From a virus, in IMG/VR virus record IMGVR_UViG_3300017783_000049, positions 1 through 46,095 of that record: a stretch of 46,095 bases of DNA; one strand, written 5' to 3'. Position numbers and translations under genes: made by a program. The notes beneath the pieces were generated by a model. The model was not told where the DNA came from. It saw only the letters and a list, made by a program, of their open reading frames with translations, and searched no databases. Positions 20,701-39,229 of this stretch are shown piece by piece. Numbering within the stretch: the stretch's first letter is position 1; each line of letters opens with the position of its first letter.

Positions 20701-23189
20701 GTGTTAAACGTAAGCTGTGAATTTCTTTGAGCAAATGTAAAGTAATAATATCCGTAAGTATCAGTACTCTGTCTCCATCCAAACATTTGAGGAGGAGTTG
20801 GATCGCTAGATACATCAATTAAATTAAATTCCAACTGTAATTCATTGGAGAACCTGTCACTTGCGTCAATAGTCGAATCGGTAACACTTGAATCATTTGG
20901 ATCTCTAGTGCTTTTTGGCATGAGGGCCTCAAAAGCTCTATTCCTGGCCAGCATTACTCCAAATATTTGCTTAGTATTGTTGCCAAAGTTTTGATATGCT
21001 TCTACAAAAGCTTCTGCTGTACGAGCAGGATCGGGAAACTCTTCGCTTTCGACTAAATCATCTAGAGACGGCTCTGTTTGCCCTTCTGCGGAGCCTGACC
21101 AGCCGTCGCCTCCAAAACCGGCTCCTTGAGCACTTTCTCGACCATTCCCGCCTAGACCACCCATACCGGAACCTAAGCCAGAGCCTCCTACGTTAGGGCC
21201 TCCTGCAAACATGGACCCGCCACCTCCTACGCCTCCTTGGCTGTATTCTGCTACAACATCTGCATATTCTTGACTGTTATTCGACTTACTTCTTCCTACT
21301 CTTGAGTAAGATTTTTTTCTCGTTCTTATTCTCATAACTTTTGCGTTAGCGTCTGAAGCAAGATCATTTATGACTTGACGAGACAATTCTCCTGTGCCTC
21401 CGGCTACTACGTCAGCAGTCTCAGCTTCTTCTAGCAATTCATAGAAATATTCTCTGTCTTCTTCCGTATCAAAGAAGAAAGCATCAAATTCTTCGTCAGA
21501 GCCTTCTACTTCAAGCTCATTAAGATTAATCGTTATGCTTTCAATCTCCGCTCCTGTAGGCATACTGTAGGTAAATTCTCCTAGTCCCGAAGCACCACCG
21601 GCCCAAAGCATGTTTGCAAACTCTTGGAATCTTCTTGGCAAAGAACTCGCTATACCCAGGCCAACAACTCTGTCAAGGGGCGTTGTCCATTTCTGCGTTG
21701 AGCTATCAAATGACAGCATTTGATTGTCAAACAAGAATCCATCTGTGTCAGGGATGATCTCTACATCACCTAAAGAGCCAACAGTAACATCAAACCTTTT
21801 TACATTAAATTCATTAGCAGTTGCGTCCCAGAAGAGGACAAATGGAGGCAAGTCTTCTGCCTCGTTAATCTGGATCTTAGCCCCAAATTCTGCATTCTCG
21901 GGAGAGAAATAGTAGAGACCAGGCAAGTCTTGTTCAATCTCTCCATCTTCAACATTCCCTTCGCCAGAATCTAAATCCTCTAGCGATGCATTAGGGTCTG
22001 GGACACTCCCTAAGACAGTAAATGTTATCTCAGGGATTTCGTCATCACCACTAGGAAGTGAATAAACTGGAGGCTCCTCTGGGTCAGTTTCAGTGTTAAT
22101 CCAGTAGCTTGAGTTAGCCTTGTCTTCAAAGTAAGTTGGTAGATCAATCTCAACCCGGCCATCGACGCCAGGAGTACCAGTCTCAGTTACCAAGGAGCTC
22201 GACCAGATAGATCCAACCGGATCTAAGCTATGTGTTCCGTCAGGTTGAGCGGAAAATTTAAAAGTTAAGTTTAAAAGAGTTGCGTCAGAAAGGTCAAAAA
22301 CTAGCTTGCGATTTTTGAAAGCTGTTAATGTATGGGCTCTCTCATTGTTAATAGCAAATGCTGCATTTTCGCCAAACATCATCACACTATATTCTTGATC
22401 AGCCGGCTCCCAGGAGCTAAGAGCAGATATAGATATTTCAGGAACGTCTTCTGCAAGTTTCGGAGTATGATTGACAAACTTGCCGACGCTACTGCTGAAT
22501 TTTATTATGTCTTTGTTTTGAATTTGGTAAAGTCCACAGTTATAAGCTGGCGATAAATTTTGATTAGCGTAGTCATTGACATATTTCTGAGTAGACGGAT
22601 CAATGAAAAGCATTTGGCCTCGCTGAGGATTAGCCGTTAAAGTAACTTCCTCCATCTCTCCAACATTAGGAGTTCGAGGTAACTCGATAACATCCCATTT
22701 CGCAGTTGTAGCATTATATTGCAGGCTTGAATAGTGCGTTTCAGTACGTTCAGAATCGTAAAAACTAGAAGGGCTTCCAGAAACGTCTTCAAGATCCTCC
22801 AGCCCGAATTCATCTGCTGTGTCATATTTTATTGTCCATTTACCAGTCGCCTGACTATACATCAGGATCTGCTTGTCTTGGGCATTCGTAGCATCTGTTT
22901 CGAGAGCAACGTCAGTCAAATCCTGCAGAGATTTGTACCTCTTGCCAATAGCCCATCTATTACTGCTCGGCTTCCAGTAAATAAAGTCATTATCTTCAAG
23001 AGGATTATGATCTATGTCAGCGTCAAGAAACTCTAAAAGAGTAAGTCCATCCAGAAGTCCAAAGCCACCCCTCGTCTGTCCGTCGCCAATGTAAAGTTTA
23101 TTTGTATCTATTGTATATAAGGGCTCGCCTGCCTTAAGTATCAACTGTTCACGTTGTGACTCAGTAACTTTTCTAATCTGAAGAGCCAT
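17733..23189 (-). CDS. 1,818-residue virion protein with docking, carbohydrate-binding-like and MIDAS motifs
   Basis: Starts with the docking domain (LQIRKVTESQREQLILKAGE, TNKLYIGDGQTRGG), then LQDLTDV..ETD and related units as in the next gene. Residues about 650-710 are a Gly-rich linker. Around 900-930, LYQKGNRVLYQDKVWECLVR with following PPASG has the Trp/Tyr/Cys spacing of a chitin-binding CBM5/12-type module. Residues about 1005-1095 (YIYIGAD, QSYTASRSS, LLQHLMVSEFQTMNIEKALG) resemble a module frequent in phage adhesion proteins. The last 57 residues contain GLFVDRSGSM, with Asp1772-x-Ser-x-Ser as in the metal site of von Willebrand A domains, but the rest of such a domain is missing. 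Likely a large tail-tip adhesin. Confidence 0.82.
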   Translation of the reverse strand: MALQIRKVTESQREQLILKAGEPLYTIDTNKLYIGDGQTRGGFGLLDGLTLLEFLDADIDHNPLEDNDFIYWKPSSNRWAIGKRYKSLQDLTDVALETDATNAQDKQILMYSQATGKWTIKYDTADEFGLEDLEDVSGSPSSFYDSERTETHYSSLQYNATTAKWDVIELPRTPNVGEMEEVTLTANPQRGQMLFIDPSTQKYVNDYANQNLSPAYNCGLYQIQNKDIIKFSSSVGKFVNHTPKLAEDVPEISISALSSWEPADQEYSVMMFGENAAFAINNERAHTLTAFKNRKLVFDLSDATLLNLTFKFSAQPDGTHSLDPVGSIWSSSLVTETGTPGVDGRVEIDLPTYFEDKANSSYWINTETDPEEPPVYSLPSGDDEIPEITFTVLGSVPDPNASLEDLDSGEGNVEDGEIEQDLPGLYYFSPENAEFGAKIQINEAEDLPPFVLFWDATANEFNVKRFDVTVGSLGDVEIIPDTDGFLFDNQMLSFDSSTQKWTTPLDRVVGLGIASSLPRRFQEFANMLWAGGASGLGEFTYSMPTGAEIESITINLNELEVEGSDEEFDAFFFDTEEDREYFYELLEEAETADVVAGGTGELSRQVINDLASDANAKVMRIRTRKKSYSRVGRSKSNNSQEYADVVAEYSQGGVGGGGSMFAGGPNVGGSGLGSGMGGLGGNGRESAQGAGFGGDGWSGSAEGQTEPSLDDLVESEEFPDPARTAEAFVEAYQNFGNNTKQIFGVMLARNRAFEALMPKSTRDPNDSSVTDSTIDASDRFSNELQLEFNLIDVSSDPTPPQMFGWRQSTDTYGYYYFTFAQRNSQLTFNTRNHELIAHSYMRRVGCTHTRTGRFQVEFYYDADDSTKMAGEWLRIVEFQSAQSAYNGTITEVASTTIREGLEEWSDVVLYQKGNRVLYQDKVWECLVRTTKGFPPASGTAAVPTQVVDVIQGTLAISTFVEIPRFSVKSQRFEGVYQLRCTYGSNTQGGKTHPAFRFSEDAGDEADYIYIGADLMTHYSPSDISTNEGVQSYTASRSSVKAQMESMLLDTGIYLFDINVHSLLQHLMVSEFQTMNIEKALGEDNGTYLQALSNSHSSFIRSVGNGSGYYPYENQLLGGTSVYRGIHRIYGNTGYHIDGMNIDPTTLEVYYQVDNFLYNSESIKPEGYLDLHPLPQITLDSNGDASDWIRDFWNFIREDFSDFVYYLPRYAGGNRDLYLADKLYYRNLNSANSQLPLKAVIGKNIHNRTGAENGGYGPHSVTIHPDPTAAARLIVRRKGAALVPSTQGTGQTITYGNLFNIDNEILISGIPQPDPADLAAGDYWVSDFVIEKQQPVVGKSSVTGKTGARTISLARLLASKSAICIGITDESDAQRVSWMYDKWEEFRNLFPRRNFNLLVPAQSQHTFPAADMSSFGITNPSTASFSADADDLTNPIHICPKTKNTLTVPNIYRGFTSNYTDRFMVERACYLDTLFPNITEFFPTSENARSSFPMSYRWAASQYYLSQVAEAQDTSYARSSMTSGGYTDFLKDNAITAYDLYSRISTTLPISAANRAEVPSLQGRTLTFRYKVRIPAYVSTTANQVSDGVLFKYACDGNMTIDVYNPHTDNTINVVTDYSSYSIDGTTSFTGTQVESNFTPVDLANDDDFLEIRVEFTHNTGSEIWFDNPGLFALSLYVVDNTDSTSSPYHVPIFMAQDYTSPFTQLYGAPTKEVGFLVRQPMNHALDPHSTGRSYGPFNIGRDNGSAANMTDIFELCGLQNAIPGTLVGLFVDRSGSMTQATIQSAYTLLYQKCAAAQLEIVEVQNSSEDWILPFIQEI
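21035..21245 (-). repeat. Glycine-rich low-complexity segment in the 1,818-residue protein
   Basis: About 60 codons encode a Gly-rich run (GGVGGGGSMFAGG, GGSGLGSGMGGLGGNG, GAGFGGDGWSG). It separates the N-terminal docking and beta-unit half from the adhesion-like half and probably acts as a flexible hinge. Confidence 0.8.
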
Positions 23190-23222: not shown

Positions 23223-26159
23223 CTAAACAGGCAAGTATCCATAAATCAAGTATGCATAAACCTCTTTGCTTTCTATGTGTTTCCTCCAAGAAGCACCAGT
23301 AGTGTCAGTGCGATCAAACCCTGACGGAAACATTTTCTCAATGCTGAAGTGTGTGGATTTAGGCGTATTGTTTGATCCAAATAAAATTTCTGTCATAGCC
23401 GAACTGTCTAGAGGAACATTCGCTGCATTCCCCTCTGCGTTCTTGTCGTAGAACAAGATTGTTTCGGCCTCTTCGTCGAATTCGTACCTAAGTCTAGAAG
23501 TCCAGTAGACGAACCCTTGATCAATTTGAAGTAAGTCATCTTTTGGATCTTCATAGCTTAGCTTAAACTCATGCAAATAATCAGCAGAAATGGTTTGCGA
23601 CGTAACGGAAATGTTTAGTTCCTGGAAAGTCGTATCTCTCATTACAGAATCTCCAGCCGAAAATACATACCCATCAAACTGAGGATCTGAGACTGGGTTA
23701 AAGATTTCATATCTCCAGTCGAGAGGGTCTGCATGGTAGATAGCGCTGCCTCTTATAGACTTTCGCTGAAACTCATTTAAATTTTCAAAATTGCCTACAT
23801 AAGGAGCTTCGTTATATCTTGCTGTAATACTATATGTTATGTGTAAAGTTTCAGTCCCATATAGGAAATCATAGTTCTTATTCTTTGGCTTAAACTTGAC
23901 GATATAGCCACCGCCAGTTGACGACACTGGACCATCACTCGTTACAACACTAAAGGTAAAGTCATTTTCGGACACGTAATCAGCGTCTGACTGTATATAT
24001 CTGAAAGAGCCATTGTTGTCGGGAATGGCCAAAGAAATTACAGGCGCCCCTACTTCTTCAAAAGAGAATACAGGCTCTTGGCCTTGCCATCCAAAGACGC
24101 TCCCATCATCAGTCGCCGAAGGGAACGGCACAAATACTTCTACTTCCTCAAACTCCTGCAAAGCCCCAGATAAAAGTTCAGAATCTTCAATAAATGCGTC
24201 TGGATCATATTCATTGCTTGGAGGTTCATCTACTTCAACGTACTCGACTGCAAATGCTTCAATAGAAGGCGTGTATAGCGATACATAATTAGTAACACTC
24301 CCAACAATTGTAATGTTAATTTGTTGCTCTAAAGGGGGTACTGCACTGTCAAAGCTAAGCGGCCTTATGAAAACTGTAGTGCTAACTACTAAAACCTGTC
24401 CTTCAGCAAGTCCGGCATAAGTGCTGTAATTTTGATCAAAGACCCACCTCCCTGACCTCGGATGAATAGCAAAACCTGCCAATTCTGTAGACGTAAAATG
24501 AGGAGCTCGGTGGGGATAGTAGTACAATACTCCGTCTTCCTCCTCTAAGTAATTACTATCTTCAGAAAGCATAGAAACAGATCCATACTTCTCAGAACTC
24601 CCTTTTCGTGCAAATATATTTTGGATCGGCTGAACGACAGGGACGTTATCTATTCCTTCTATTTTAAAAGTAACTGTTTTTGTGAATTCGTTTCTGTCTC
24701 CGGCCTGTAACGGAAACTCTTTCATCTCAAGGACGTTGTCTCCTAGGACTTCAAAATATTCAGGTAGGTTGAACGAGGCCGGATTGAGGGTGTAACTTTT
24801 TTCAATAGAAGGGATAAAAGTTTCGTCAACAGTCAATGTAAATTTTAGGTTTAGGTTATAATAATTAATCCTTAGATCTTCTCCTAACCCTGTCCATGGG
24901 GCGTATGTAATTAATACATAATGCAAGTAAAGGTTATTTCTTTCATAGCTAGCAAACTTTGTGTGATCAAGTAAAGGTACATCATCTAAATGTTCATGAA
25001 GACGATGTATAGGGACTAAATCGTAAGCAAAATTGTTAGGGCCATTAGTAAGGCCGTAATCTACAGGCCCAGCACCTGATAAAAACTCCCATTCAGGAAT
25101 GTCGTCTGGTATCTGGAATTGTACTACGCTTCCGTTTGGAAGAGTATCATCATTAGCTGGGTCGATAGGCCGGTTAACTAGAGCAGGCCAGCCATGTACA
25201 TTTACATTGATACGCTTACCTGGATACACTGCATTTGCTCTTATTATTGAAGCTTGAATTTTTTTTCCAGTCACTAAAGTCGCTATTTCAAACATATATA
25301 AAGCAGCGTCTAAAGGTCCATTAATATTGTCTGGATTGATCGCCTTGATCTCTGTGAAATGTACGCCTTCTCCTCCTTTATTATTAATTAAAAAACTTAA
25401 GAGACTGTCATCAAAGATACCTCCTATCCCAGCATACAGTCCGTCGATAGGAAGCCAAAGAGGCGTGTCAACAGAAGCTGAGTCCATCATGGCTTGGATC
25501 ATTACAAATTTTGTATAATCGTCTCCAGAGAGCCCGGAAGGAATTACGTCATGATCATTAGGATGTGGCAAACTCAAAAGATCTACTTCAAAAATTGATA
25601 TACTTTCTTCCAAAGACCCAAGCATTATCCCAATCAATACGCCTGAACCGAGAGCAAGTGCCGCATATAGATTTAAGAAAAGATTGTATCCATAGCCTTC
25701 TGGATTTGTGGCGCTTCCGACTTCACTTTTTACCTCTAATCTTTTTAAGATTTCTGGGTAGACGAGCCAAGTCGCTCCTGACGGTATCTCGCCCACATCT
25801 AAGAAAACTGGATGTTTTGTTCTTTTCTTTCTTTTGCTTGCTTTTTCTCTTGGCGGCTTTTTTTCTTCAACAATTTTTATAGGTTCTTTTGGTTTGACGT
25901 TTTTATGCATTACATTGAACGATTCATCGACATATACTTTTGTCCCTATCGGAGGTATTGTATTAGTTACAAGGTTTACGATATAGATTTGATCATCGAT
26001 TTTTACAGTAGCAGAGCCTGATTCATTAAAGCCATGCCACTTGGCCATCCCAGGGATGCCTCTTTTCTTGCTGTACTCATCTGCTGACAGCAAGGCTCTT
26101 GCTGCTGCTGCAACTGCATCTACTTTTGCTACTAATTGCTTAATAAGAGGAGTGTCCAT
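23223..26159 (-). CDS. Large virion-associated protein of unknown function
   Basis: 978 residues, stop at 23223, abutting the next gene upstream. The N-terminus is a short helix (LIKQLVAKVDAVAAAARALL) and a small beta region. A basic linker follows at about residues 86-118 (KKPPREKASKRKKRTKH), then a hydrophobic stretch at about 157-187 (YAALALGSGVLIGIMLGSLE) that could cross a membrane. The C-terminal 500 residues are beta-rich with cadherin-like spacing (VPVVQPIQNIFARKGSSEKY, EDSNYLEEEDGVLYYYP, FAIHPRSGRWVFDQNYST, TFSVVTSDGPVSSTGGGYIV). No enzyme motif is visible. It lies between hub-region genes and the fibre genes, so it is probably a tail-tip protein; the hydrophobic stretch could serve membrane contact at DNA entry. 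Confidence 0.75.
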   Translation of the reverse strand: MDTPLIKQLVAKVDAVAAAARALLSADEYSKKRGIPGMAKWHGFNESGSATVKIDDQIYIVNLVTNTIPPIGTKVYVDESFNVMHKNVKPKEPIKIVEEKKPPREKASKRKKRTKHPVFLDVGEIPSGATWLVYPEILKRLEVKSEVGSATNPEGYGYNLFLNLYAALALGSGVLIGIMLGSLEESISIFEVDLLSLPHPNDHDVIPSGLSGDDYTKFVMIQAMMDSASVDTPLWLPIDGLYAGIGGIFDDSLLSFLINNKGGEGVHFTEIKAINPDNINGPLDAALYMFEIATLVTGKKIQASIIRANAVYPGKRINVNVHGWPALVNRPIDPANDDTLPNGSVVQFQIPDDIPEWEFLSGAGPVDYGLTNGPNNFAYDLVPIHRLHEHLDDVPLLDHTKFASYERNNLYLHYVLITYAPWTGLGEDLRINYYNLNLKFTLTVDETFIPSIEKSYTLNPASFNLPEYFEVLGDNVLEMKEFPLQAGDRNEFTKTVTFKIEGIDNVPVVQPIQNIFARKGSSEKYGSVSMLSEDSNYLEEEDGVLYYYPHRAPHFTSTELAGFAIHPRSGRWVFDQNYSTYAGLAEGQVLVVSTTVFIRPLSFDSAVPPLEQQINITIVGSVTNYVSLYTPSIEAFAVEYVEVDEPPSNEYDPDAFIEDSELLSGALQEFEEVEVFVPFPSATDDGSVFGWQGQEPVFSFEEVGAPVISLAIPDNNGSFRYIQSDADYVSENDFTFSVVTSDGPVSSTGGGYIVKFKPKNKNYDFLYGTETLHITYSITARYNEAPYVGNFENLNEFQRKSIRGSAIYHADPLDWRYEIFNPVSDPQFDGYVFSAGDSVMRDTTFQELNISVTSQTISADYLHEFKLSYEDPKDDLLQIDQGFVYWTSRLRYEFDEEAETILFYDKNAEGNAANVPLDSSAMTEILFGSNNTPKSTHFSIEKMFPSGFDRTDTTGASWRKHIESKEVYAYLIYGYLPV

Positions 26160-26444
26160 CTACCTCCATGCCGCCCCTAAGAACTTCTCCCCGCTCCTAA
26201 TATTAATTTTATCTTTCTTACGTTTACTCGCGTATGCGGCACTCTGAACATTATATTTTGTACCTTTGTAAGAGACTGTCGGTTGATTGTTTAGTTCGTA
26301 GCCCTCCCACTTTCCTTCAAAGTTTCTTTGCCCAAAAGCACCTCCTCCTACTGAATTTTCGATAGAATTTATCCTTTCGGCTTGGGCAGTTCTTGCTACT
26401 AGCTCTAACAAGCTAATCGCATTGTTTGGATTGATAAGAGTCAT
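26160..26444 (-). CDS. Small tail-region protein, unknown
   Basis: 94 residues. It starts in an ATGA overlap with the gene upstream (26441-26444) and ends one base before the 978-residue gene's ATG, so it is firmly in the operon. The N-terminal part is helical (ISLLELVARTAQAERINSIE) and the rest is a basic, Tyr- and Gly-rich segment (YELNNQPTVSYKGTKYNVQS, KRKKDKINIRSGEKFLG). No known family recognised. A small tail-tip structural role is inferred from place only. Confidence 0.65.
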   Translation of the reverse strand: MTLINPNNAISLLELVARTAQAERINSIENSVGGGAFGQRNFEGKWEGYELNNQPTVSYKGTKYNVQSAAYASKRKKDKINIRSGEKFLGAAWR

Positions 26445-26872
26445 TGTGTTTTAATGTTGACTTGTAAATTAAATCTGGCGATATTGCCTCCTGATGTAAG
26501 CTCTTGGATCCCTCCTAGGCTATGAATAGAAACAACGTTTACTACGTCTAACGGTTGCGCTGCTATCCTTTCAAATACAATAAATGTATCAAATCTCATA
26601 GGAATTGAATTCCCATTGTGTATGAACTCAAAATATTTAGAGGTAGTCGTAGCTTTTCCAACTAAAACAGATACGTCATTCTCCGTATAGGTATAGCTCA
26701 GCCTGATATAACCTCCCGCGGAAGGAGGGACTTCTTTTGTCGTTAAAGATGCATGATCAGTCGTTGGGCTGAAAGGAGTTCCACTGCTTAGAAACAAGCC
26801 AGCTTCAAACTGCCTATTATTTACAATCGCTTTGATGTTCTTATCTAGTTCAGTTTCAGAGACTACAGACAT
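26441..26872 (-). CDS. Probable minor tail protein, unknown
   Basis: 143 residues, beta-rich after a short helix (ELDKNIKAIVNNRQFEAGLF). The strand-like stretches YIRLSYTYTENDVSVLVGKA and MRFDTFIVFERIAAQPLDVV resemble a virion beta-sandwich. Coupled by ATGA to the following gene and 19 bases downstream of the preceding one. No motif gives a precise function. Confidence 0.65.
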   Translation of the reverse strand: MSVVSETELDKNIKAIVNNRQFEAGLFLSSGTPFSPTTDHASLTTKEVPPSAGGYIRLSYTYTENDVSVLVGKATTTSKYFEFIHNGNSIPMRFDTFIVFERIAAQPLDVVNVVSIHSLGGIQELTSGGNIARFNLQVNIKTQ

Positions 26873-26891: not shown

Positions 26892-27779
26892 TTAGTGTGC
26901 CGAGGGCTTCAAACGACTAGGCGGATAAGGATAGTTGTACTCAACTATATTATTGAAATCAACTGTTAAATTTGTCGTGGGATTTGAGATCGATCCGTAA
27001 TCGCTTGAATACCCAAAATTCGGGACATTAGCCCCATAGTTCCATCCTTTGAACAATTTCTTTTTAAAAGAAAATTTATATTCGTATGTGTATTCTGTCT
27101 TAAATTCATACCTAAAGACATCAGAATTTCTTGGGAAAACCTCATGGGTTGAGGGTAACGAGCTAACAGTAACATGTGCCAGAGTGTCAGGGTCTACTAC
27201 TTTTAAAGGTGTATTGATAGTAGCTTCGTATAACCCTAGATCTGGGGTTTCCGGATAGCTTGACTCTCCTGTATCAAAGTTTCCGCCATCGTATGACTGC
27301 AACAATGCCGCATTGCCTCCGATTGCGAAATCACCGCCATCACTTGAGACTCCTCCTAGGCTTTCTCCGGAATCAAAATCACCACCATCTACCTCTTCTG
27401 TGGGCTCAAGCTGAATAGTTATTGGCAGCCAGTTATACAGCATCGACTGAGTCTCGCCTTGAGAATCATACGCAAAGTAGTCAAAATTTAAACGTATAGA
27501 CACGTCTGATGCATTGGCGTCCCAAATCAGCAGTCCCAAAGCGATATCCGCTTTGCTTATTTGCGTTGGGATTGCGTTGTTGCGACTATCAAGAATAGTA
27601 ACGCCATTTAGCTTCAATGTTCCGTAATCTGGAGGCGTATCTACTTCAATGTACACACATCTACTAGGCAGATTTAAATCATTAACGGTAAGTGGAACAA
27701 GCCCAGTACTGTCAACATCTCGAACATAAGAATAATGGTACTTGTCTGGATCGTAGACCAAGTTAGTGGTATAAGTCAT
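26892..27779 (-). CDS. Tail-tip structural protein with DGG(D/N)F repeats
   Basis: 295 residues. The first 130 residues form a beta-rich domain (GLVPLTVNDLNLPSRCVYIE, YGTLKLNGVTILDSRNNAIP, LLIWDANASDVSIRLNFDYF). Residues about 130-175 carry three short repeats: DGGDFDSGES, DGGDFAIGG and DGGNFDTGES. These are acidic, turn-rich and could bind calcium. The rest is a Tyr/Phe-rich beta region. ATG overlaps the stop of the giant hub gene by four bases (ATGA), implying coupled translation. Role inferred as tail-tip assembly partner of the hub. Confidence 0.7.
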   Translation of the reverse strand: MTYTTNLVYDPDKYHYSYVRDVDSTGLVPLTVNDLNLPSRCVYIEVDTPPDYGTLKLNGVTILDSRNNAIPTQISKADIALGLLIWDANASDVSIRLNFDYFAYDSQGETQSMLYNWLPITIQLEPTEEVDGGDFDSGESLGGVSSDGGDFAIGGNAALLQSYDGGNFDTGESSYPETPDLGLYEATINTPLKVVDPDTLAHVTVSSLPSTHEVFPRNSDVFRYEFKTEYTYEYKFSFKKKLFKGWNYGANVPNFGYSSDYGSISNPTTNLTVDFNNIVEYNYPYPPSRLKPSAH

Positions 27780-30700
27780 GATGTGTAACCAATTAAGTTA
27801 AGGGAAACGATCATGTTGTATGGATCGAAGCCCCAGGTGGTGGAGGTTGTGTAATACTTGCCTTGCGTCTTGCCTTTAGACGTAACCGAAACGGGCATCC
27901 CAGGAGTCCAGCTAAATAGTTCTGGTCGCATTGTTTCTACAACTCTGACAGCATTCCCCCTAAGACTGTGACGACGAGCCTCATGGCCCATATAGACGCT
28001 GCACAGCCTCTCTATAGAAGCAAGCCTTGTACTGGCGGCTGTTCGGTACGTTGATCCTATGACGTTGCAGTCTCCTCTATCCATGAACAACGGATCTCCA
28101 AACTGATCAAGAGTCAAGGCTGTTAGGCTTTCTGGGATGAGGGGTAAGAATGGCAGAGGGAAGCTGACTTCCTCCGAGCCTCCTACATTAATTGAAGCAA
28201 TTTCAGTCTGATTACCACTAACTGTAACACTTAAATTAATTGTATAACTCTCTGTTTCTATGTTACATGGACTCAGTCTTTGTCCAGATCTAAAGCCTTG
28301 ACTAGGATCCAGGTCATCCAAATCTGCATGTCCAGGAACATCATCACCATCAGCATCAGGATCGCTGCTATTTAATATGCCATCCCCATCTAAATCAGAA
28401 TCTTGGAAGTCAGGAATGCCATCTCCGTCAGTATCTACGTCAAAGACTAAAGGTCTGGGATCGCTAGCGTTAGGAAGAGCGTCTCCATCAAGATTAGGGT
28501 CTACAATATCTAAAATACCATCTCCGTCTAAATCATCTTCATCTGCAGTTGATGGATTTGGATCATCTACATTAAGTACTCCGTCTCCATCCATGTCATC
28601 ATCTTCATAATCAAATAATCCATCTTCGTCAATATCTCCTGCGACAACAAGCGGATCAGGGTCGACACCATTCAGCAGGCCATCTCCGTCGATATCGGGG
28701 TCTTCAAAGTCATAGAGGCCATCTCCATCAGTGTCGTAATCAAAGACAAGAGGACTTGGGTCTACAGTATCTGCTAGGCCGTCGCCATCATCGTCAGTAT
28801 CCACCGCGTCAACTGTTCCGTCATCGTCAGTATCAGTGAATGAATTCTTAGGATTGGGGTCGTCTGCATTGGCAAGTCCATCCGCGTCCATGTCAGGATC
28901 GTTCGCATTGCTAGCCCCGTCACCATCTATATCAGTGTCAAGGTCGTTAATGGTGCCATCGCCATCCATGTCTGGGTCGTCAGCATTCAAGAAACCGTCG
29001 CCGTCTATATCATCGTCTAATTTGTTTATATATCCATCGCCGTCAGTGTCGATAGTGTCTGCTCTCTGCGGTTGGGGATCTAGCTCATTAGGGATCTCAT
29101 CACCGTCAATGTCTGGATCTTCGAAATCGGCTATCTGATCTCCATCAATGTCAGAATCAGGTACTGCAGGCCTCGGGTCATCGTCATTAGGGATCCCATC
29201 ACCGTCAATGTCTGGATCTTCGAAATCATAGAACCCGTCTCCATCTGAATCCAAATCAGGGGTAATAGGATTAGGGTCTTCTTCTTGAGGTGCATTACGA
29301 AGACCATCTCGATCAATATCTTGATCAAAGCGTCTTGGGTTTGGATCGTCTTCGTTCAGGATGTTGTCTCCGTCAATATCTGGGTCTAAATCATCAGTTG
29401 TTCCATCTTCGTCTAAGTCGTAGAATCTTGGGTCGTAAGGAGCATTGCGAGGAGGCGCCTCAGGGGCAGCGGCATTGTCTGTAGACAATACAATATGAGT
29501 AGTATTATTTAATGGATTGTCATAATCAATCTTTGTATTTGTATGTTTGACTGTCCCTACTCCATACTCGTATTCGTCAATACTCTCCTGACGTAAATGT
29601 TGCCTTTTGTATGTAGGTAAGCCGAAAATGGTATTACTCTGAAAGCGATATCTATGCATTATCAACCCTTTGATTACATCAGGGCCTCTATATGCACCCT
29701 CGGATGTAAATATAATTTCTTTTATAGCATCAGTGAGTGGTTTGCCTGTTCCTCCATGTATATAATTTTTTTGTTCTTTCCTGATGACTTCACCCCCCTC
29801 TGCTCCGAAGTACATATCTGTTTTCGTAATATTTGTTAAAACTCTATGGCCTTCCATTTCAGCCAGGAAGGATCTGGCGAAATCATAAAGGCGTCCGCAC
29901 TGATCTTTAAGTCTCAATAGATTTATCTGAGCGTCGGCCATCATGCAATCATAGAAATCTCTTGCCGCTAACATTTTCCTTACAGTGTCATTGTCTAAAC
30001 ACTCTACTATTATCCTAAACTTCGAAGGGTCGTTATCATCTCGAAGCTGACCATATTCATTTATCTGGTCACAAACTTCTTGCATAGCATTGATACGTAT
30101 TTCATACGCTTCATTTACTTGATCTAAAAATGCAGAGATATTTGACTCAGAAGATCTCCAAACGCTCATATTTTCTAATGTTTTCTCGTGACTTAATTGA
30201 TTTCCAGGGCCTTCATACTCGAATTCTTGGATTTTCTCAACATGATCATCAAAATAATATTCTTCTGTAAACAAAGATCCAGTAGTTTTATAGCCATAGA
30301 CACTATCTATTGGAAGTATTTTCTCAATATCATCTAGATTTACTTCTGTAGTACATTCCGAGCTACCTCCACCGCCTGCCCTTAAAACTGCCTCAGCCTG
30401 CTCACTCCTTATTGTCGGATTGACAAAGATTCCACACCTCAGCCCATTTTCTCTTCTATTGACTCCATTATCGACATCAGGATCTTCCCCTACCCCAGGG
30501 AGTCCTTCGGCGTTGTCTAGCCTTTCTAGTTCACTAGGGTCAAACTTTCCTTGTCTTATTTGCAAGCATTCAGAGAAAGGTTTTAATCTTAAGGCCTTAG
30601 TCTGCATAAACATTTTGTCAGACAAAACCTCATCTTTTATCTCGTCAGGATTCTCGTCCTCATCATCTTCCTCATCGTCTGAGACGCAAATTCCGTCGAC

Positions 30701-32086
30701 ACAAGAAAATCCGGTATGACATTGGCTAGACCTTCTGCATTCATCAATTTCGTCTTCTATACAATGACCGTCCACGCAGATAAACCCTTCTTCACAATCA
30801 TCTCCGTCCACACAGTCATTAGGCGATTTTACGCATTGACCATTCACGCATTTCTCATCTTCAGCGCATTCAATGTCTCCATTCGTACAAAATTTCGGGA
30901 GCAAATGGCATTCATTGTCAACACACTGAAAACCTTCACCACAGTCACTTGAGTCTTTGCAATCAACGCTAATGCATTTACCGTTAACGCAAAGGCCACC
31001 TCCTCTGCTGCGACAGTTTCTTTCATCTTCGCATTCAATTTCTACACACGTACCATCGTCACATAGATAACCAGAAGGGCAATCGTTCGTAGTGCTGCAA
31101 CTTAATTGCTGACATTTTTTATCAACACAAACAAAATCAGTTGGGCAACTGTTGTCATCTCCACAATACTCGTCTTGGCAAGTCCCGTCGACACAAATGA
31201 ATCCAGTCGGGCAATCGTCGGTTCCAGAACACGGCAATGCCGTACAAAGACCATTTAAGCAAGTATATCCCTCAGGGCAATCGTCTGTGTCCCCGCATTC
31301 AACTGCTTCACAGAACCCCTCAAGACAAATTTCCGCGCCGCGACAGTCCTCCGCACTTACACATTGAGTCGGATCGGTTGCTGTTTCATCCTCGTCGGGG
31401 TCTGTCTCTGGATAGCCCGGAGTCTCAATTTCTTCTGTAAGAGAAAGTGTCGTAGGCGGAATAATTACGTCCTCCAAGTCTTCAACTGATAGGCTCGATC
31501 TTTCTGTCCATGAAGTAAAAGCAGGGGCCGATGTAAATACTTGTTCCCATCTCTGAACAGTAAATTTACCATGAGCCATATAAGCAAAACTACCTATCGC
31601 CCTTAAAGCGCTATCAAGAGCGTTGAGATCAAAAGTATCTATCTGGCAGACATCTAGAATGCTGTCAATTCCGCTGAGACTTTGTATATAGCCTTTAACC
31701 TCGTCGTTGTCATTTGTTCCGAAATCTTTAATTACAGATAATCGGCAGGCAACCTCAATAGTTACAGACTGAGTCGTAAAATTTCTTTTGATATTTACAA
31801 CATATAAATTGCTACGTGGGTGCTTAGCACTGTGCCCCCCGGCAAAAGATGCACTTATTGTAACAAGATCGCCAAGAGAAAATTTAGATTCTACTATAGG
31901 CTCGCCACCAACGGTATAACCAGCTAACTCAAGAGAACCTGTAGTAAAAACAATACCTCCACTAGTAATGTCGGAGTCGGAGACAGTCCCTCCTATTAAA
32001 TTTTGACTAACATTTTTCCCTCCAATGACTATTTTTGTTTTCTTGTTAGTAGAAACATAAGAAGGCCCTGAGTTGATATTAGTCAT
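27776..32086 (-). CDS. Tail hub-like protein carrying EB/EGF-like and thrombospondin type 3-like repeats
   Basis: 1,436 residues in one uninterrupted frame. Residues 1-200 look like a tail-hub N-terminus (KIVIGGKNVSQNLIGGTVSD, LGDLVTISAS, VTIEVACRLSVIKDFG). Residues 242-468 hold ten repeats, each with four cysteines in the pattern C-x5-C-x5-C-x4-C (for example CGDTDDCPEGYTCLNGLC). Residues 480-880 include a helical coiled region. Residues about 885-1262 are aspartate-rich DTDGDG..D.EDPDIDGDG repeats of thrombospondin type 3 style, which bind calcium. Residues 1270-1436 return to hub-like sequence (RPELFSWTPGMPVSVTSKGK, WGFDPYNMIVSLNLIG). The adjacent genes are tail protein and tape measure, so the hub role is well placed; the purpose of the inserts is unknown. 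Confidence 0.85.
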   Translation of the reverse strand: MTNINSGPSYVSTNKKTKIVIGGKNVSQNLIGGTVSDSDITSGGIVFTTGSLELAGYTVGGEPIVESKFSLGDLVTISASFAGGHSAKHPRSNLYVVNIKRNFTTQSVTIEVACRLSVIKDFGTNDNDEVKGYIQSLSGIDSILDVCQIDTFDLNALDSALRAIGSFAYMAHGKFTVQRWEQVFTSAPAFTSWTERSSLSVEDLEDVIIPPTTLSLTEEIETPGYPETDPDEDETATDPTQCVSAEDCRGAEICLEGFCEAVECGDTDDCPEGYTCLNGLCTALPCSGTDDCPTGFICVDGTCQDEYCGDDNSCPTDFVCVDKKCQQLSCSTTNDCPSGYLCDDGTCVEIECEDERNCRSRGGGLCVNGKCISVDCKDSSDCGEGFQCVDNECHLLPKFCTNGDIECAEDEKCVNGQCVKSPNDCVDGDDCEEGFICVDGHCIEDEIDECRRSSQCHTGFSCVDGICVSDDEEDDEDENPDEIKDEVLSDKMFMQTKALRLKPFSECLQIRQGKFDPSELERLDNAEGLPGVGEDPDVDNGVNRRENGLRCGIFVNPTIRSEQAEAVLRAGGGGSSECTTEVNLDDIEKILPIDSVYGYKTTGSLFTEEYYFDDHVEKIQEFEYEGPGNQLSHEKTLENMSVWRSSESNISAFLDQVNEAYEIRINAMQEVCDQINEYGQLRDDNDPSKFRIIVECLDNDTVRKMLAARDFYDCMMADAQINLLRLKDQCGRLYDFARSFLAEMEGHRVLTNITKTDMYFGAEGGEVIRKEQKNYIHGGTGKPLTDAIKEIIFTSEGAYRGPDVIKGLIMHRYRFQSNTIFGLPTYKRQHLRQESIDEYEYGVGTVKHTNTKIDYDNPLNNTTHIVLSTDNAAAPEAPPRNAPYDPRFYDLDEDGTTDDLDPDIDGDNILNEDDPNPRRFDQDIDRDGLRNAPQEEDPNPITPDLDSDGDGFYDFEDPDIDGDGIPNDDDPRPAVPDSDIDGDQIADFEDPDIDGDEIPNELDPQPQRADTIDTDGDGYINKLDDDIDGDGFLNADDPDMDGDGTINDLDTDIDGDGASNANDPDMDADGLANADDPNPKNSFTDTDDDGTVDAVDTDDDGDGLADTVDPSPLVFDYDTDGDGLYDFEDPDIDGDGLLNGVDPDPLVVAGDIDEDGLFDYEDDDMDGDGVLNVDDPNPSTADEDDLDGDGILDIVDPNLDGDALPNASDPRPLVFDVDTDGDGIPDFQDSDLDGDGILNSSDPDADGDDVPGHADLDDLDPSQGFRSGQRLSPCNIETESYTINLSVTVSGNQTEIASINVGGSEEVSFPLPFLPLIPESLTALTLDQFGDPLFMDRGDCNVIGSTYRTAASTRLASIERLCSVYMGHEARRHSLRGNAVRVVETMRPELFSWTPGMPVSVTSKGKTQGKYYTTSTTWGFDPYNMIVSLNLIGYTS
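28301..29434 (-). repeat. Thrombospondin type 3-like Asp-rich repeats
   Basis: About 380 codons (residues 885-1262 of the hub-like protein) repeat DxDGDG(hydrophobic)xDxxDPDIDGDG with small spacers containing DPNPxxxD. Copies near 28430 and 28720 and copies near 29110 and 29210 are almost identical in DNA, showing recent internal duplication. In characterised proteins such repeats wrap around many calcium ions and are stiff only when calcium is bound. Confidence 0.88.
30683..31363 (-). repeat. Ten EB/EGF-like four-cysteine repeats
   Basis: Residues 242-468 of the hub-like protein contain 40 cysteines in ten units. Most follow C-x5-C-x5-C-x4-C (units 1-5, 7, 9 and 10); unit 6 (ending GGGLCVNGKC) and unit 8 (CTNGDIECAEDEKC) have extra residues. 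The consensus is C...DDCP.GF.CVDG.C. Such units usually form disulfide-bonded modules in secreted or surface proteins. Confidence 0.88.
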
Positions 32087-32088
32087 TC

Positions 32089-32502
32089 TTATACCTCAGA
32101 TAAAGCAGTGGTAATTAAAAAAACTTTTTGATTTGACGGGCCAATCTTTTGAAGGTTAGGGGGAGTCGTAAAAAATCCAAAATATTGCTCAGCACTTCCA
32201 GTCAATAAAGTGCTAGAAATATTAATTTTTGCAATTTGTCCCTCACCTCTGGCGATATCCCACTGCCTGAAGACAGAGTCTAAGCTAATCCAGTCGTCAT
32301 AACTTGCATACGCTGATATAGTAAATATCCTCTTCTGCCTTCTTACCGGGCCTGTTGCAATAGCGGCCCCTTGTGCTGTGTATTCAAAAGAAGCTTCTGA
32401 CAGATATTGGATAGGATAAGAGTCATCAGCAAAATTGTAAAATCTTACGAAGGTGCTGTTATATCTTAATTCTAAATAGTGATTATTTACCGGAACACTC
32501 AC
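32089..32502 (-). CDS. Probable minor tail (distal-tail-like) protein
   Basis: 137 residues, beta-rich, between the tape measure and the hub, which is the usual place of a distal-tail or tail-tip adaptor. ATG 32502 overlaps the tape-measure stop by four bases (ATGA); the stop lies two bases before the hub ATG. Visible strands include YLELRYNSTFVRFYNFADDS, YLSEASFEYTAQGAAIATGP and RRQKRIFTISAYASYDDWIS. No diagnostic motif; function from synteny. Confidence 0.72.
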   Translation of the reverse strand: MSVPVNNHYLELRYNSTFVRFYNFADDSYPIQYLSEASFEYTAQGAAIATGPVRRQKRIFTISAYASYDDWISLDSVFRQWDIARGEGQIAKINISSTLLTGSAEQYFGFFTTPPNLQKIGPSNQKVFLITTALSEV

Positions 32503-35500
32503 AGCCTCCCTCCTCTTCTTGCTTTCATGATATTAATATCAGTCAGAAGCTTGCTGGCATCCATTACTGGAGATTGACTTTGTATTGTTACATTATTAGT
32601 AATTCTCTGGGTGTCACCTCCTTTCATCATTGACCCCATTTGCTTAATTAGTGTTCCAGAAGGAACGATTCCAGTAACCCCTTGCGACTCTCTAGCCGGC
32701 TTAGCAGACCGTGTCGCTGCAGTGATAGATGCATTAATTTTTTGGTTTTTAATAAGCGTGCTTGTGTCGTTAGCATTTAGGACATATCCAGATTTTGGAG
32801 CCCTCCACTTAACGTTTCTAGCAGCAGGGAGAAGCGAAACCTTCCCTGAAGTGTCAACGAACGACTCTCGGCCTCCTCCATCGTTAACCTTGTAGGTGGC
32901 ACCACCAGTAACTGGACCGCCCGTTGCCCTGGAGCCGAAGGGGACTCCTTCCATTGCGGTTTTCAAGCTATTGGTTGCACTAATGGCTTTGCTGATATTT
33001 TTTAGAGAGCTCTCAGAATCAGTCCCCATTTTTTGGATGGCTGCACTTGTATTTCCAAACTCTGTATTCAGTTTTTGCACTTTGCCCTGCACATTAGAAA
33101 GGCCAGCATTCATTGTGTTGACGGATTCGCCAAGAGCGGCTTTCACCTTTTTCACATCTAATCCAAAGAAGTTTTGGTCAATAGCTTGTCCGTCTGTAGC
33201 GAGTTTCTCTGCACCAGTCTGCAATGCCTTGACAGAATCTTGAACCTCTTTCTTGCTTGCTGCCCCGGCATTTTTAATGTTGTCTAAGCCCTGCTGGCCA
33301 ATGCTCTCAACGTCACGCAAAGCTTCTACAGTTCCACTGCCCATCTCGTTAAGGGAATTCCGCAGGTCGCCGCCAATGTTTTGAACAAAGTTTTTAATGT
33401 CACTTAAATTACTCTCTGGAACTAAATTAGTTGGCTGAATACCTGCTGCTCTAAGTCTTGTATTTAAAGCTTGTTGAGCTTGTGAAACTTGTAGTTCAGC
33501 CGCAAAGTTTTCCACCCTAAACATTTGTTCATTCGCTTTCGAAAGCGTTTCAGTCATTCCTATCACTTTTTGCAGCGCCTGAATCCTGGCTTGATTCTGT
33601 GCAGTTGCAGGCTCGGCTTTTAGCATTTCTATTTGAGCCTGAGTCTCCAGGCTTATCATCTCCAACTTGTGCTGCTTCTCAGCCTGCTGAACCTGCCTTT
33701 TGATTTTATCAATTTCAAATTGCAACTCAAACATATCCTTCTCAAGCCTCAAGGCATCGTCTAAGATGCTTTTATCACCTGTAACCAAAAATTCAATTGT
33801 AGCAGCCTTATTTATGGCGGTCTTAAATGTATCAAAAGCAGAAGTGATCCCTGAGGTTAAGTCGTTGAAGCCACCTTTTTGTAGGTCTTTAAGTTTGCTA
33901 TAGCTCTGGATAAGTGTATCATTTTCTTGCTTAACTTCTTTAATCCTGTCGAGCATAGCTTTGCTCAATTCTTGCTCAGCAGCTTGGGCTTCTTTCGCTG
34001 CAGCGACTCGATCGGCGCCTAGTTCCCGAGCTCGGGTTCTCAAAGCAACTACATCTTGGCTACTTTCAGCCTGACGTTTGAAGTTGAGATCTATCTCCTT
34101 TTGGATGGCGTCTAAGTTAGATTTTGCGGCAGCTTCTCTAATAGCTGCATTCCTTACCTGTAATTGCCCTTCGGTTATTAAACCTTGATTAAGTTTTTCT
34201 TGTCCTGCTGCTCCCAAGGCGGCTGTTACTGCCTCTAATTTTTGCTTTCTCGTTTCTAATGCTTTATTAGAAGCTTCAAGTCTTTCTGTTAGAGTTCCGT
34301 CGCCGTCTGCCGCTGTGTGAATTATTCCGGTGAAACGTCGGGTGCCGTCCATCGCAACTTCTATTGCTGCTGCCTTCTCTAAGAAGGCATCCTTCTGCCT
34401 CTCTAATTGCTGGACTTCTTTTTCATTAACGTTGCCTGCTGCTTTCATCTTGTCTATCTGCTGCTGCAACGCGCCAGCCTGAGCTTCTAAGCTAGTTTTT
34501 ACAGCACCCGATCCTTTCCTGAATTTCACAAGATCTTCTGCTGACATCTTTGCAATATTGCCGTAGTCTAAGAAGCTTTGAGCTCCCTTTTTGTCAAGAA
34601 AATCACTAAGTCCTTTTAGCTGCTTTTGGTTTTGTGCCATGGCATCTTCAAAAGCTCGTTCCCTCCCAAATCTTTTTATACCAGAAACTAAAGATCCAAT
34701 CCCCTGTATTAATTGACGAGCAAAAGGTATTAAGCTTATAAACCCATCCTTCAACCTTTCTACAAAGGTAGTAGCCTTTTCTGATTCAATTCCTAGCGAT
34801 TTGAGAGTGCTCTCAGACTCTTTGATAGGCTTAATTAACGCTCCTATTGATTTCTGATATTCATTAAACGCGAGGGCGCCTGCGGCGGCGGCCAAGCCAA
34901 CGACAGCAAAGGCACCTAGACCTGCCGCTCCTATTCCAACTATCGCAGCCTTAGCACCGAGTGCAGCAGTTTTTATGGCGGCGGACTTGCCGGCGAGCAA
35001 TTGAGCACTGGCGGCTGCTGCCTTATTTACAGAAGCACCAGCATCTCCTGCTACTGGGGCGGCTGCTTTTTTTCTTAGGTCGATAAGACCCTTCAACTTG
35101 GAAGGGAAGTCACCTAATAAACCCTTAGATGTCGTTTTACCTAAACTCCTAAAGGATTGAGTCAATCCGTTAAAAAATCCAGAAACATCTCCCTTTATTA
35201 ATTTAAGAAGCGAACCTTTTAATTGTTTAACTGATATTCTAAACAACTGAAGAGTTTTATTGCCATTCCCTATAGACTCAGACATCTTGTCATTGACCTT
35301 CGTGAAGGCAATACTTGCTAGTCTTAAAGCAACTAGAGGCGCAAGAATCGCCGCGATCGGTCCAGCTAAATTAGAGAATGCTTGAACTAATGGTCCTAAA
35401 GGGGCCAATATAGTCCCTAAAGCTTTAGCTAAACCTATGAACAATTTCCCAAGATTTTTTATTGCTCCAGCAATACTGTTAAAAGCATTTATTAACGCTT

Positions 35501-36992
35501 GACCCCAGGGACTGTCTACGGCTTCTTGTATAAATTTCGCTACTGCATTTGACAGTTCTAGTATTGCACGGATCCCCGGCTCAGCAGCAGCACCAAGAGA
35601 TTCTAATGTCTTAGTTTGTATGTTTGCGATATTGTTTTGCAATTGCTGAACAGTAGCAGTACCATTCTCAATCTTCCCTTTTAGTCTCTCAGCGCCATTT
35701 TCCATCTTAAGGAAAGCGTCGACAAAGACAGTACTTGTGACTTGGCCGCTTTCAACAAGCTCCCCTAGTTTATCTATGCTGACGCCTAAAGCATCTGCGA
35801 ACTGAGTCCTGAAGGCACCATCAACTTCAGATATCTGTTGAGTAAGTTCTTCTGCTTGAAGTTTGCCTTTACTTAGAACCTGAGCGAACGCCTCTTGCAA
35901 TCGTCCTGATTCTTCTGTAGTCAATCCTAAGACTTGGGTTCTCGCCGTTAAGCCTTCGATGAATTTATTAGTATCGCTAGAACTGGAGCCAATAGCCCTT
36001 AGCGCTGGCACAATTCTTTTAAAAGCCTTTTCAACCTGTTCTACTGGAGCCCCTAGGTTGATAGCAGACTGAGCAGCAACATTGAATTTTTGTGCTGTTT
36101 CAACGGAAGATAACCCAACATTTTGCAGCGCTAATGAGAAGGCTTCTACTGATTTGGTTCTGTTTACGACTTGGTTTATCGCTCCACCCACTTGTCCAAA
36201 GGCAGAACTTATAGCAAGAATACCAGACTGAATAGTTCCGAGTTTTCCTAAAACACTTATAAAACTTGTGGTTTTTCCACTAGCCGCAGAGATTCTTTGG
36301 CCGTAGAGTTGCGCTGCTTTAGAAGCCGCAATCTGAGCTTTACTTCCTAGCTTAAGACTGGTAGCAAGCTTTAGTTCCTTGGCTTGCATGAACTGACGGC
36401 TTTGTACGCTCCCCTTCTGTATTCCTTGTGCCCTAAGCAGTGAACGCGCATTGACATCGATCTCATTAGTCAACCCACTGGTTTTTTGCTCTGCCAGTGT
36501 CAGCTTGCTTGCCTGAGCTTGCAGTGCTGCTCCAATCTCCTGTATATCTTGGACACTATTAGGCATTATGCCCTGTGCTCTTCGATGCTCCTCAGTAAGC
36601 TGCTGAACCCTTTCTGCTTGTATTTTATATCCACTAGTTAATGGCCCCAAGGCCCCTAATTCTTGCTTTGCTTGACTAAGCCTTTGTCTTGCAAGTGTCG
36701 CTCCTGCTGCTTCAAGCTTTAATTGCCTTTTATTTATTTGCTCCGACTTGCTGAGAGCCGTATTAAACTTATTGGTTGCCGTTGTTAAGTCTACGACTTG
36801 TCTGAAACCACCTGCATCCTTAACATTGAGGCCAATGTTTACCTCATTATCAAACTTCCCTATCGTCCCCCCAAACTTTGTAATTACTTCAGCAAGCTCT
36901 TCAAAAGTTCCTATAAAGCCTTGTATTGCCCTTCTGGCCGCTGCTGCATTTTTTGCTTCTACCGAAAAACCAATTTGGCGAGGATCTGCCAC
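32499..36992 (-). CDS. Tape measure protein
   Basis: 1,497 residues, starting at GTG 36992 with AAGGA six bases upstream. It is largely helical and Ala/Gln/Lys rich. Residues about 265-470 match the tape-measure domain seen in many phages (FNVAAQSAINLGAPVEQVEK, TEESGRLQEAFAQVLSKGKL, TQQISEVDGAFRTQFADALG). Hydrophobic segments lie at about 500-560 and 675-705 (AIVGIGAAGLGAFAVVGLAA), thought in this family to aid membrane passage. A long coiled coil covers about 1000-1200. No peptidoglycan hydrolase motif seen. At about 0.15 nm per residue the length predicts a tail near 225 nm, which supports a long-tailed siphovirus. Confidence 0.95.
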   Translation of the reverse strand: MADPRQIGFSVEAKNAAAARRAIQGFIGTFEELAEVITKFGGTIGKFDNEVNIGLNVKDAGGFRQVVDLTTATNKFNTALSKSEQINKRQLKLEAAGATLARQRLSQAKQELGALGPLTSGYKIQAERVQQLTEEHRRAQGIMPNSVQDIQEIGAALQAQASKLTLAEQKTSGLTNEIDVNARSLLRAQGIQKGSVQSRQFMQAKELKLATSLKLGSKAQIAASKAAQLYGQRISAASGKTTSFISVLGKLGTIQSGILAISSAFGQVGGAINQVVNRTKSVEAFSLALQNVGLSSVETAQKFNVAAQSAINLGAPVEQVEKAFKRIVPALRAIGSSSSDTNKFIEGLTARTQVLGLTTEESGRLQEAFAQVLSKGKLQAEELTQQISEVDGAFRTQFADALGVSIDKLGELVESGQVTSTVFVDAFLKMENGAERLKGKIENGTATVQQLQNNIANIQTKTLESLGAAAEPGIRAILELSNAVAKFIQEAVDSPWGQALINAFNSIAGAIKNLGKLFIGLAKALGTILAPLGPLVQAFSNLAGPIAAILAPLVALRLASIAFTKVNDKMSESIGNGNKTLQLFRISVKQLKGSLLKLIKGDVSGFFNGLTQSFRSLGKTTSKGLLGDFPSKLKGLIDLRKKAAAPVAGDAGASVNKAAAASAQLLAGKSAAIKTAALGAKAAIVGIGAAGLGAFAVVGLAAAAGALAFNEYQKSIGALIKPIKESESTLKSLGIESEKATTFVERLKDGFISLIPFARQLIQGIGSLVSGIKRFGRERAFEDAMAQNQKQLKGLSDFLDKKGAQSFLDYGNIAKMSAEDLVKFRKGSGAVKTSLEAQAGALQQQIDKMKAAGNVNEKEVQQLERQKDAFLEKAAAIEVAMDGTRRFTGIIHTAADGDGTLTERLEASNKALETRKQKLEAVTAALGAAGQEKLNQGLITEGQLQVRNAAIREAAAKSNLDAIQKEIDLNFKRQAESSQDVVALRTRARELGADRVAAAKEAQAAEQELSKAMLDRIKEVKQENDTLIQSYSKLKDLQKGGFNDLTSGITSAFDTFKTAINKAATIEFLVTGDKSILDDALRLEKDMFELQFEIDKIKRQVQQAEKQHKLEMISLETQAQIEMLKAEPATAQNQARIQALQKVIGMTETLSKANEQMFRVENFAAELQVSQAQQALNTRLRAAGIQPTNLVPESNLSDIKNFVQNIGGDLRNSLNEMGSGTVEALRDVESIGQQGLDNIKNAGAASKKEVQDSVKALQTGAEKLATDGQAIDQNFFGLDVKKVKAALGESVNTMNAGLSNVQGKVQKLNTEFGNTSAAIQKMGTDSESSLKNISKAISATNSLKTAMEGVPFGSRATGGPVTGGATYKVNDGGGRESFVDTSGKVSLLPAARNVKWRAPKSGYVLNANDTSTLIKNQKINASITAATRSAKPARESQGVTGIVPSGTLIKQMGSMMKGGDTQRITNNVTIQSQSPVMDASKLLTDINIMKARRGGRL

Positions 36993-37075: not shown

Positions 37076-37711
37076 TCAGGGGTTTGCGTCAATATTCAAT
37101 TTGTATGGACCATAGCCGGTCAAGGTTGCGCTCCAGGACACGATAGACCCAGCCTCAATGCTTTCACTATACCCTTGAAGTGTTCCATAACCGTAAACTT
37201 CCTCGTCCGTGCCTGTAGGGCCACAACGAGCAAATTTGACACGCAAGCTGTTAGCAACAGTATTTTGCTCTGTCAAGCGCAGCACTTGGTAGCCAGAATC
37301 GCGGAAGTCAGCTACGCCTTCAAGGCTGATACTCCAAGACTTGGAAGTAGCAATAGAAGTACTGAAGCCTGCTGTTTCGTCATCATAAGTGATGACATCT
37401 TCTGACGATGTATCAGTTTCAAGAGCAGCATTGGTCAGCCCATAAAGGCGGAAAGGACCATCGGTCCCGTCCATAGCGTAGGTGGTTCCTTCTACAGTGA
37501 AAACACCAGTAGCGGTATTAAAGGCGATTGTTGAGTTTGCTGCTGCAATGTTTCCTCCATCGCCAGCCGAAGAGGAATCAGTTTTTAAAAATGCTGCTGG
37601 CTGTGTTAAGCCTTTCGCTGCTGTGACACTAGGAAAAGCGATGTTAACCTGAGATGAGGCCACTGGGAGCATGTAGACATCATACCCAAAGGCTGCTGAA
37701 TAGTTTGCCAC
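37076..37711 (-). CDS. Major tail (tube) protein
   Basis: 211 residues. Start is GTG at 37711 (ANYSAAFGYDVYMLPVASSQ follows). It is beta-rich with many Thr, Ser, Gly and ends in a strand region SIVSWSATLTGYGPYKLNID typical of tube proteins (cf. SW..TL.G.G). Placement between the terminator-like gene and the tape measure, plus a strong terminator immediately after it, fits the most abundant tail protein. No sheath gene accompanies it. The upstream leader of about 100 bases contains the small hairpin CCGGA-ATGAA-TCCGG overlapping the start region, which might affect translation. Confidence 0.87.
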   Translation of the reverse strand: MANYSAAFGYDVYMLPVASSQVNIAFPSVTAAKGLTQPAAFLKTDSSSAGDGGNIAAANSTIAFNTATGVFTVEGTTYAMDGTDGPFRLYGLTNAALETDTSSEDVITYDDETAGFSTSIATSKSWSISLEGVADFRDSGYQVLRLTEQNTVANSLRVKFARCGPTGTDEEVYGYGTLQGYSESIEAGSIVSWSATLTGYGPYKLNIDANP

Positions 37712-38721: not shown

Positions 38722-38863
38722 TTTTCTACGTTATCATTGCGTTCTAGTGTGCCATATAAGGAACAATAAAGGCAGATGCGGAAATGCTTATGACGTTCGA
38801 TCGAGTCATCGTTTCTTTGTTTCCGCAACAATGACAACGAGCCTCTTAATTTGGCCAAGAGAT

Positions 38864-39229
38864 ATGGCTAAAGATTACCTTTACAACCTAGAGGCTATGA
38901 ATTCAAAAGATGCTAAAAGGCTTTGGAGAAAAGCGATTAGAGAGGCCTGGAACAACCAATGCGCTTACTGTGGAGCAACTCCAATAGATTCAAAAAGTTT
39001 AACTCTTGACCATGTTAAGCCCAAATGTAAAGGAGGCGAGGATGTAACCAAAAATTGTATTCCAGCATGTCGGAGTTGCAATGCAAACAAAGGCAGCGAA
39101 AACTGGATTGCATGGTTCAGAATGCAACCATTTTACTCAATGGAGACAGAGATTCTGATCAAAGAGTGGCTTCGTACTGGAAGAATTGGCTCTTACCATT
39201 ACGAAACTTTTTACGAAAAAGTTAGCTAA
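38864..39229 (+). CDS. HNH homing-type endonuclease
   Basis: The frame can begin at GTG 38747 or ATG 38831, 38864 or 38897; I chose 38864 (MAKDYLYNLEAMNSKDAKRL), giving 121 residues, but the choice is uncertain. CAYCG and CRSCN form the two zinc-binding CxxC knuckles, and LTLDHVKPKCKGGEDVTKN is the HNH catalytic strand with the metal-binding Asp-His and a later Asn. It is the only plus-strand gene inside the structural operon, and its 3' end overlaps the tail-chaperone T region by eight bases. Free-standing HNH genes of this kind spread into phage genomes by cutting a related site; homing is the likely role. Confidence 0.9.
   Translation: MAKDYLYNLEAMNSKDAKRLWRKAIREAWNNQCAYCGATPIDSKSLTLDHVKPKCKGGEDVTKNCIPACRSCNANKGSENWIAWFRMQPFYSMETEILIKEWLRTGRIGSYHYETFYEKVS

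Follow-up and report, generated by a model that had tools for sequence, protein, structure and literature searches.

Tail hubs of the Synechococcus siphoviruses S-CRES1-3 and S-CBS2 (S-CRES2 gp86, S-CBS2 gp024) are proteins of 732–759 residues that contain neither four-cysteine units nor aspartate repeats, and a separate cysteine-rich gene is found about 1.6 kb downstream of the hub gene. S-CRES2 gp86, which is 759 residues long, is labeled "pyocin R2", and in S-CBS2 the hub is recorded as structural and the cysteine-rich gp029 only as hypothetical. The cyanosiphovirus P-SS2 also encodes both proteins. Its ORF079 (L007 5079–8081, GQ334450) is annotated as "tail tape measure protein" but is actually a hub, with 28% identity over 86% of the hub of relative L012, and its ORF084 is a polypeptide of 2612 residues with 282 cysteines. 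Mass spectrometry of purified P-SS2 virions detected ORF084 with an average of 43 peptides and the hub homolog ORF079 with the same number (PMC2784084).

This report deals with a relative of S-CBS2, S-CRES1-3, and P-SS2 represented by the IMG/VR record IMGVR_UViG_3300017783_000049, a stretch of 46,095 nucleotides hereafter called the window. It encodes a protein of 1436 residues that belongs to the same hub family as P-SS2 ORF079 and is a real, unusual variant of this known kind of protein, in which two long repeat arrays interrupt the hub sequence.

The Tail Operon and Identity of the Hub

The tail genes of the window are read from the minus strand in the order found in S-CRES1-3 and S-CBS2. 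The major tail protein (37076–37711; assigned by PHROG and 51–59% identical to its counterparts in S-CBS2 and S-CRES1-3) is followed by the tape measure protein (32499–36992; Pfam TMP_3, E 1e-25, and PHROG tape measure), a small tail protein corresponding to S-CRES2 gp85 (32089–32502; tblastn 30%, E 1e-12 to L001 14661–14993), the hub, a series of small genes and larger structural proteins, the scaffold and the major head protein. The counterpart of S-CRES2 gp87, which directly follows the hub in the relatives, is located at 26441–26872 on the same strand (tblastn 30%, E 8e-7), and that of gp92, which in the relatives comes next after the cysteine-rich gp91, at 15672–17699, also on the minus strand (tblastn E 3e-5 to L001 and 3e-8 to L019). 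At approximately the position of the cysteine-rich gene of the relatives the minus strand encodes a protein of 978 residues that has no cysteine at all (23223–26159); it had no match in the phage collection and within IMG/VR was found only in its own lineage (two sister contigs). Another large protein with few or no cysteines lies beside it (17733–23189). An HNH endonuclease gene is present on the opposite strand within the tail operon (38747–39229, plus strand), in the same position as in S-CRES2.

The hub gene occupies positions 27776–32086 of the minus strand as a single open reading frame of 1436 codons and a stop, and it is preceded by the tape measure gene and a small gene for the distal tail, the position expected of a hub gene. 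It shares with the hubs of S-CRES1-3 and S-CBS2 the place in the operon, homologous N- and C-terminal parts and a weakly homologous middle. Within the N-terminal part (residues 1–221; 31424–32086), residues 9–119 are 35% identical to S-CRES2 gp86 (E 1e-17), and a profile of the relatives matches this end with E 1e-22 (model positions 7–155). Within the C-terminal part (residues 1263–1436; 27779–28300), residues 1372–1432 are 35% identical to the L005 hub (E 3e-7), and the same profile gives E 7e-7 (model positions 556–616). The region between the two arrays (residues 471–884; 29435–30676), which the first-pass annotation had left undescribed, is diverged and longer than its counterpart in the relatives; a weak but collinear match to residues 385–503 of S-CRES2 gp86 (E 0.002), a weak profile match and a YxGPGxQxS motif hint that it may be hub-like as well. 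A scan performed with this middle region matched only the two sister contigs.

Since library profiles (PHROG, Pfam, and PDB sequences) gave no informative match for the hub family, its identification relied on the fold of a relative. An AlphaFold2 model of the insert-free relative L012, built from a 37-row alignment (mean pLDDT 77), has among its best PDB matches VgrG (8gra), the MuSo2 43-kDa tail protein (3cdd), the base plate of an Anabaena injection system (7b5h), the T5 tail tip (7zqp), the pyocin R2 hub (6u5h), and T4 gp27 (1k28). The hub fold (gp27/VgrG/Tal-like) is thus seen in an insert-free member of the family, to which the window protein is tied by sequence alone; a single-sequence model of its residues 881–1436 reached a pLDDT of 37. 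The proposal that this protein is a tail hub is well supported, the grounds being the homology of both ends, synteny and the modeled fold of the relative, and not a model of the protein itself.

Two Repeat Arrays in One Reading Frame

The first array, or cysteine insert, spans residues 242–470 (30677–31363, minus strand). Of the 52 cysteines in the protein, 40 are concentrated in residues 242–467 as ten groups of four with the spacing C-x5-C-x5-C-x4-C and small variations, a pattern that occurred on average 0.06 times and at most twice in 2000 composition shuffles. These units had been described as EB/EGF-like, and while their number and four-cysteine make-up hold, the label does not. The Pfam family DUF7107 (PF23416) matches five stretches with E 8.5e-19, scoring 47.5 bits with the whole protein and 68.1 bits with the segment against a curated cut-off of 24.6, whereas the EB module (PF01683) remains below its own cut-off (E 0.003; 18.1 bits against 24.3). 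No EGF family was matched at E 1 in the Pfam search, and the units hold four cysteines instead of the six of the EGF pattern. By sequence, they are best classed as DUF7107. The units are presumably disulfide-bonded; glutaredoxin, considered as a disulfide partner, exceeded the cut-off in four of seven related contigs and not in the 64-kb sister contig, and was dropped. A protein with similar four-cysteine units is encoded by the archaeal virus ANMV-1 (L241 3696–7196).

The second array, or aspartate insert, spans residues 885–1262 (28301–29434, minus strand) and contains 33 matches to D-x-D-x-D-G between residues 890 and 1247, against a mean of 1.4 and a maximum of 7 after shuffling, with a main repeat period of 33 residues. 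Its reported similarity to thrombospondin type 3 (TSP3) repeats stands in part: in addition to the motif count, the TSP3 repeats of COMP (PDB 3fby) are matched with E 5e-6 by the whole protein and 0.0015 by the array alone; on the other hand, no Pfam TSP3 model matched the array at E 1, a result in which composition filters may matter. The insert contains no cysteine, and the linking cysteines of animal TSP3 repeats are therefore absent. The motif Dx[DN]xDG binds calcium in many folds, including thrombospondin (PMC3123361), and the phage array, which resembles TSP3 repeats, probably does so too.

Aspartate arrays also occur in other viruses. A scan with a DNA pattern returned mostly out-of-frame matches, but at the protein level TSP3 arrays were found in 38 other viral open reading frames, none of them hub-like and none with four-cysteine units. 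Long TSP3-like arrays are present in L108, L139, L124, L144, L100, and L202–L240, several of which belong to the phrog_14478 virion protein family. The aspartate array by itself is thus not unique; within a hub, or together with four-cysteine units, it was found only in the lineage of the window. A search of the literature on phage TSP3 repeats, cysteine-rich siphovirus tails and calcium-binding hub inserts retrieved nothing relevant. The frame, the shuffle tests and the homology of the ends agree with the original description of both repeat types as parts of one frame between hub-like ends, to which the strand (minus) can be added.

Origin and Arrangement of the Inserts

A scan with the hub alignment recovered 61 loci, from which 51 hubs could be parsed, some of them from near-identical contigs. 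None of the 51 carries four-cysteine or aspartate repeats, in agreement with the expectation that related hubs do not routinely have these inserts. Some contain unrelated additions elsewhere, such as about 160 residues at model positions 421–425, glycine-rich repeats at about 640–658 and a C-terminal extension in L065. Hubs with inserts or extensions at other positions are those of L062, L065, L066, L055, and L057. In view of these other inserts the hub appears to be a permissive scaffold, the pair of cysteine and aspartate inserts nevertheless not being a routine feature.

For 31 relatives the DNA downstream of the hub extends over at least 4 kb, and in every one of them a separate cysteine-rich protein, an open reading frame with at least 35 cysteines, was found there within 6 kb, starting 1.3–3.8 kb past the hub. 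Only the lineage of the window lacks it, having cysteine-free or cysteine-poor proteins at that position, and the 64-kb sister contig encodes no other protein of this kind. A profile of the ten hub units detects one N-terminal unit in most of the separate cysteine-rich proteins above the best shuffle score, and several units in those of L060, L005, L070, and P-SS2 (ORF084), although the match extends over some 20 residues and those of S-CRES2, L012, L040, and L061 score below the best shuffle.

The reading that we favor, with a probability of about 0.6, is that the protein is a hub with two loop inserts, the cysteine one relocated from a separate gene and the aspartate one calcium-binding, which together contact the host. 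As the window lineage is alone in lacking the separate gene, the cysteine module has probably moved into the hub: the insert would be a built-in version of the cysteine-rich tail-tip protein that relatives encode as a separate downstream gene, which is absent here, its module being part of the hub. The simplest reading of this distribution, given that the shared unit is short, is that the module is a tail-tip component which normally binds the hub and here belongs to it. The missing gene and the insert may accordingly be linked, but the short match and the common type of the unit weaken the case for descent of the insert from that gene, and the purely hypothetical label of S-CBS2 gp029 also speaks against this reading.

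A less probable alternative considers the two inserts as independent, neutral-to-useful decorations of a permissive hub, and the loss of the cysteine-rich gene as coincidental or compensated by the proteins of 978 and 1818 residues. The unrelated inserts of other hubs, the cysteine-free or cysteine-poor occupants of the vacant position and the presence of the four-cysteine unit in unrelated viruses are all consistent with it. Against it stand an association that has no exception in the sample (the separate gene present in 31 of 31 relatives and missing from one lineage) and the unit type common to the insert and the separate proteins.

The arrangement of the inserts bears on the proposal of the first-pass annotation that the aspartate repeats form a stiff rod, part of a rigid, calcium-gated tail-tip arm or collar crossing the host surface layers. 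Solved relatives of the TSP3-like repeats are calcium binders, as the COMP match and the motif indicate, and the hub would sit at the tail tip. However, on the model of the relative the inserts map to residues 212–222 and about 487–505, both low-confidence loops (in one alignment of the three, the second boundary falls nearer residue 530), so that each insert is predicted to exit and re-enter a single hub loop. With both ends in one loop a single outward rod is unlikely, any outward reach having to go there and back, and the aspartate insert is expected on this model to be a compact or hairpin excursion. The stiff rod is not supported, and we regard the gated arm as improbable.

That the frame is an assembly chimera or frameshifted junk fusing hub and repeat genes, a doubt raised at the outset because repeats misassemble readily and one that the metagenomic origin of the three contigs keeps in mind, is most improbable, since two distinct genotypes on three contigs have the same intact frame: the copies in sister contigs L003 and L004 are identical to each other and 97% identical to that of the window, with equal length and no indels. 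Comparison of the two genotypes gives Ka/Ks values of 0.24 for the cysteine insert, 0.21 for the aspartate insert, 0.08 for the C-terminal part and 0.94 for the middle, which derive from few substitutions but argue that both inserts are maintained as protein under purifying selection.

Under the favored reading of a hub with a relocated cysteine module and a calcium-binding loop, the aspartate array would wrap around many calcium ions at the calcium concentration of seawater and form a compact, stiffened detour ending at the hub loop from which it started. Both inserts would probably decorate the exterior of the hub trimer and share in contact with the host surface; their exposure is presumed, and a host-contact function and calcium dependence are plausible. 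A more specific version, in which the hub took up the separate cysteine-rich protein that had been its partner at the tail tip and acquired an aspartate loop loaded with calcium, making assembly of the tail tip or recognition of the host dependent on calcium, is a tentative possibility.

Comparison With Known Systems

The window draws attention to a conserved and unstudied cysteine-rich tail-tip protein of cyanosiphoviruses, present in every relative that could be tested (31 of 31). From the apparent fusion one would predict docking of this protein on the hub; if true, the fusion would reveal both the binding partner and the docking loop of an uncharacterized virion protein. The window also offers a testable case of calcium-binding repeats like those of animal matrix proteins within a tail hub, in a group of phages that infect ecologically central marine cyanobacteria.

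Each element of the protein has known counterparts. The cysteine insert has the four-cysteine spacing of Pfam DUF7107, a family without known function, here placed within a tail hub. DUF7107-type units are also inserted in a central tail protein of the T4-like phage S-SCSM2R, a gp5-type hub/lysozyme (L002 4117–6540) in which the profile of the window units finds three (residues 635–695); that hub, however, is of an unrelated family (Gp5 OB type) and has no aspartate repeats. Aligned with COMP over about 250 residues, the aspartate insert has the tandem D-x-D-x-D-G calcium-loop motifs of the TSP3 repeats, but lacks their cysteines and the C-terminal lectin-like domain. Virion proteins of other phages (phrog_14478 type, L108, L139, L124) are likewise large and carry long DTDGDG-type arrays; unlike the window protein they are not hubs, have no four-cysteine units and show another repeat consensus. 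In P-SS2, whose ORF084 contains four-cysteine units of the same kind, the hub and the cysteine-rich protein are two separate virion proteins, whereas here they are represented by one.
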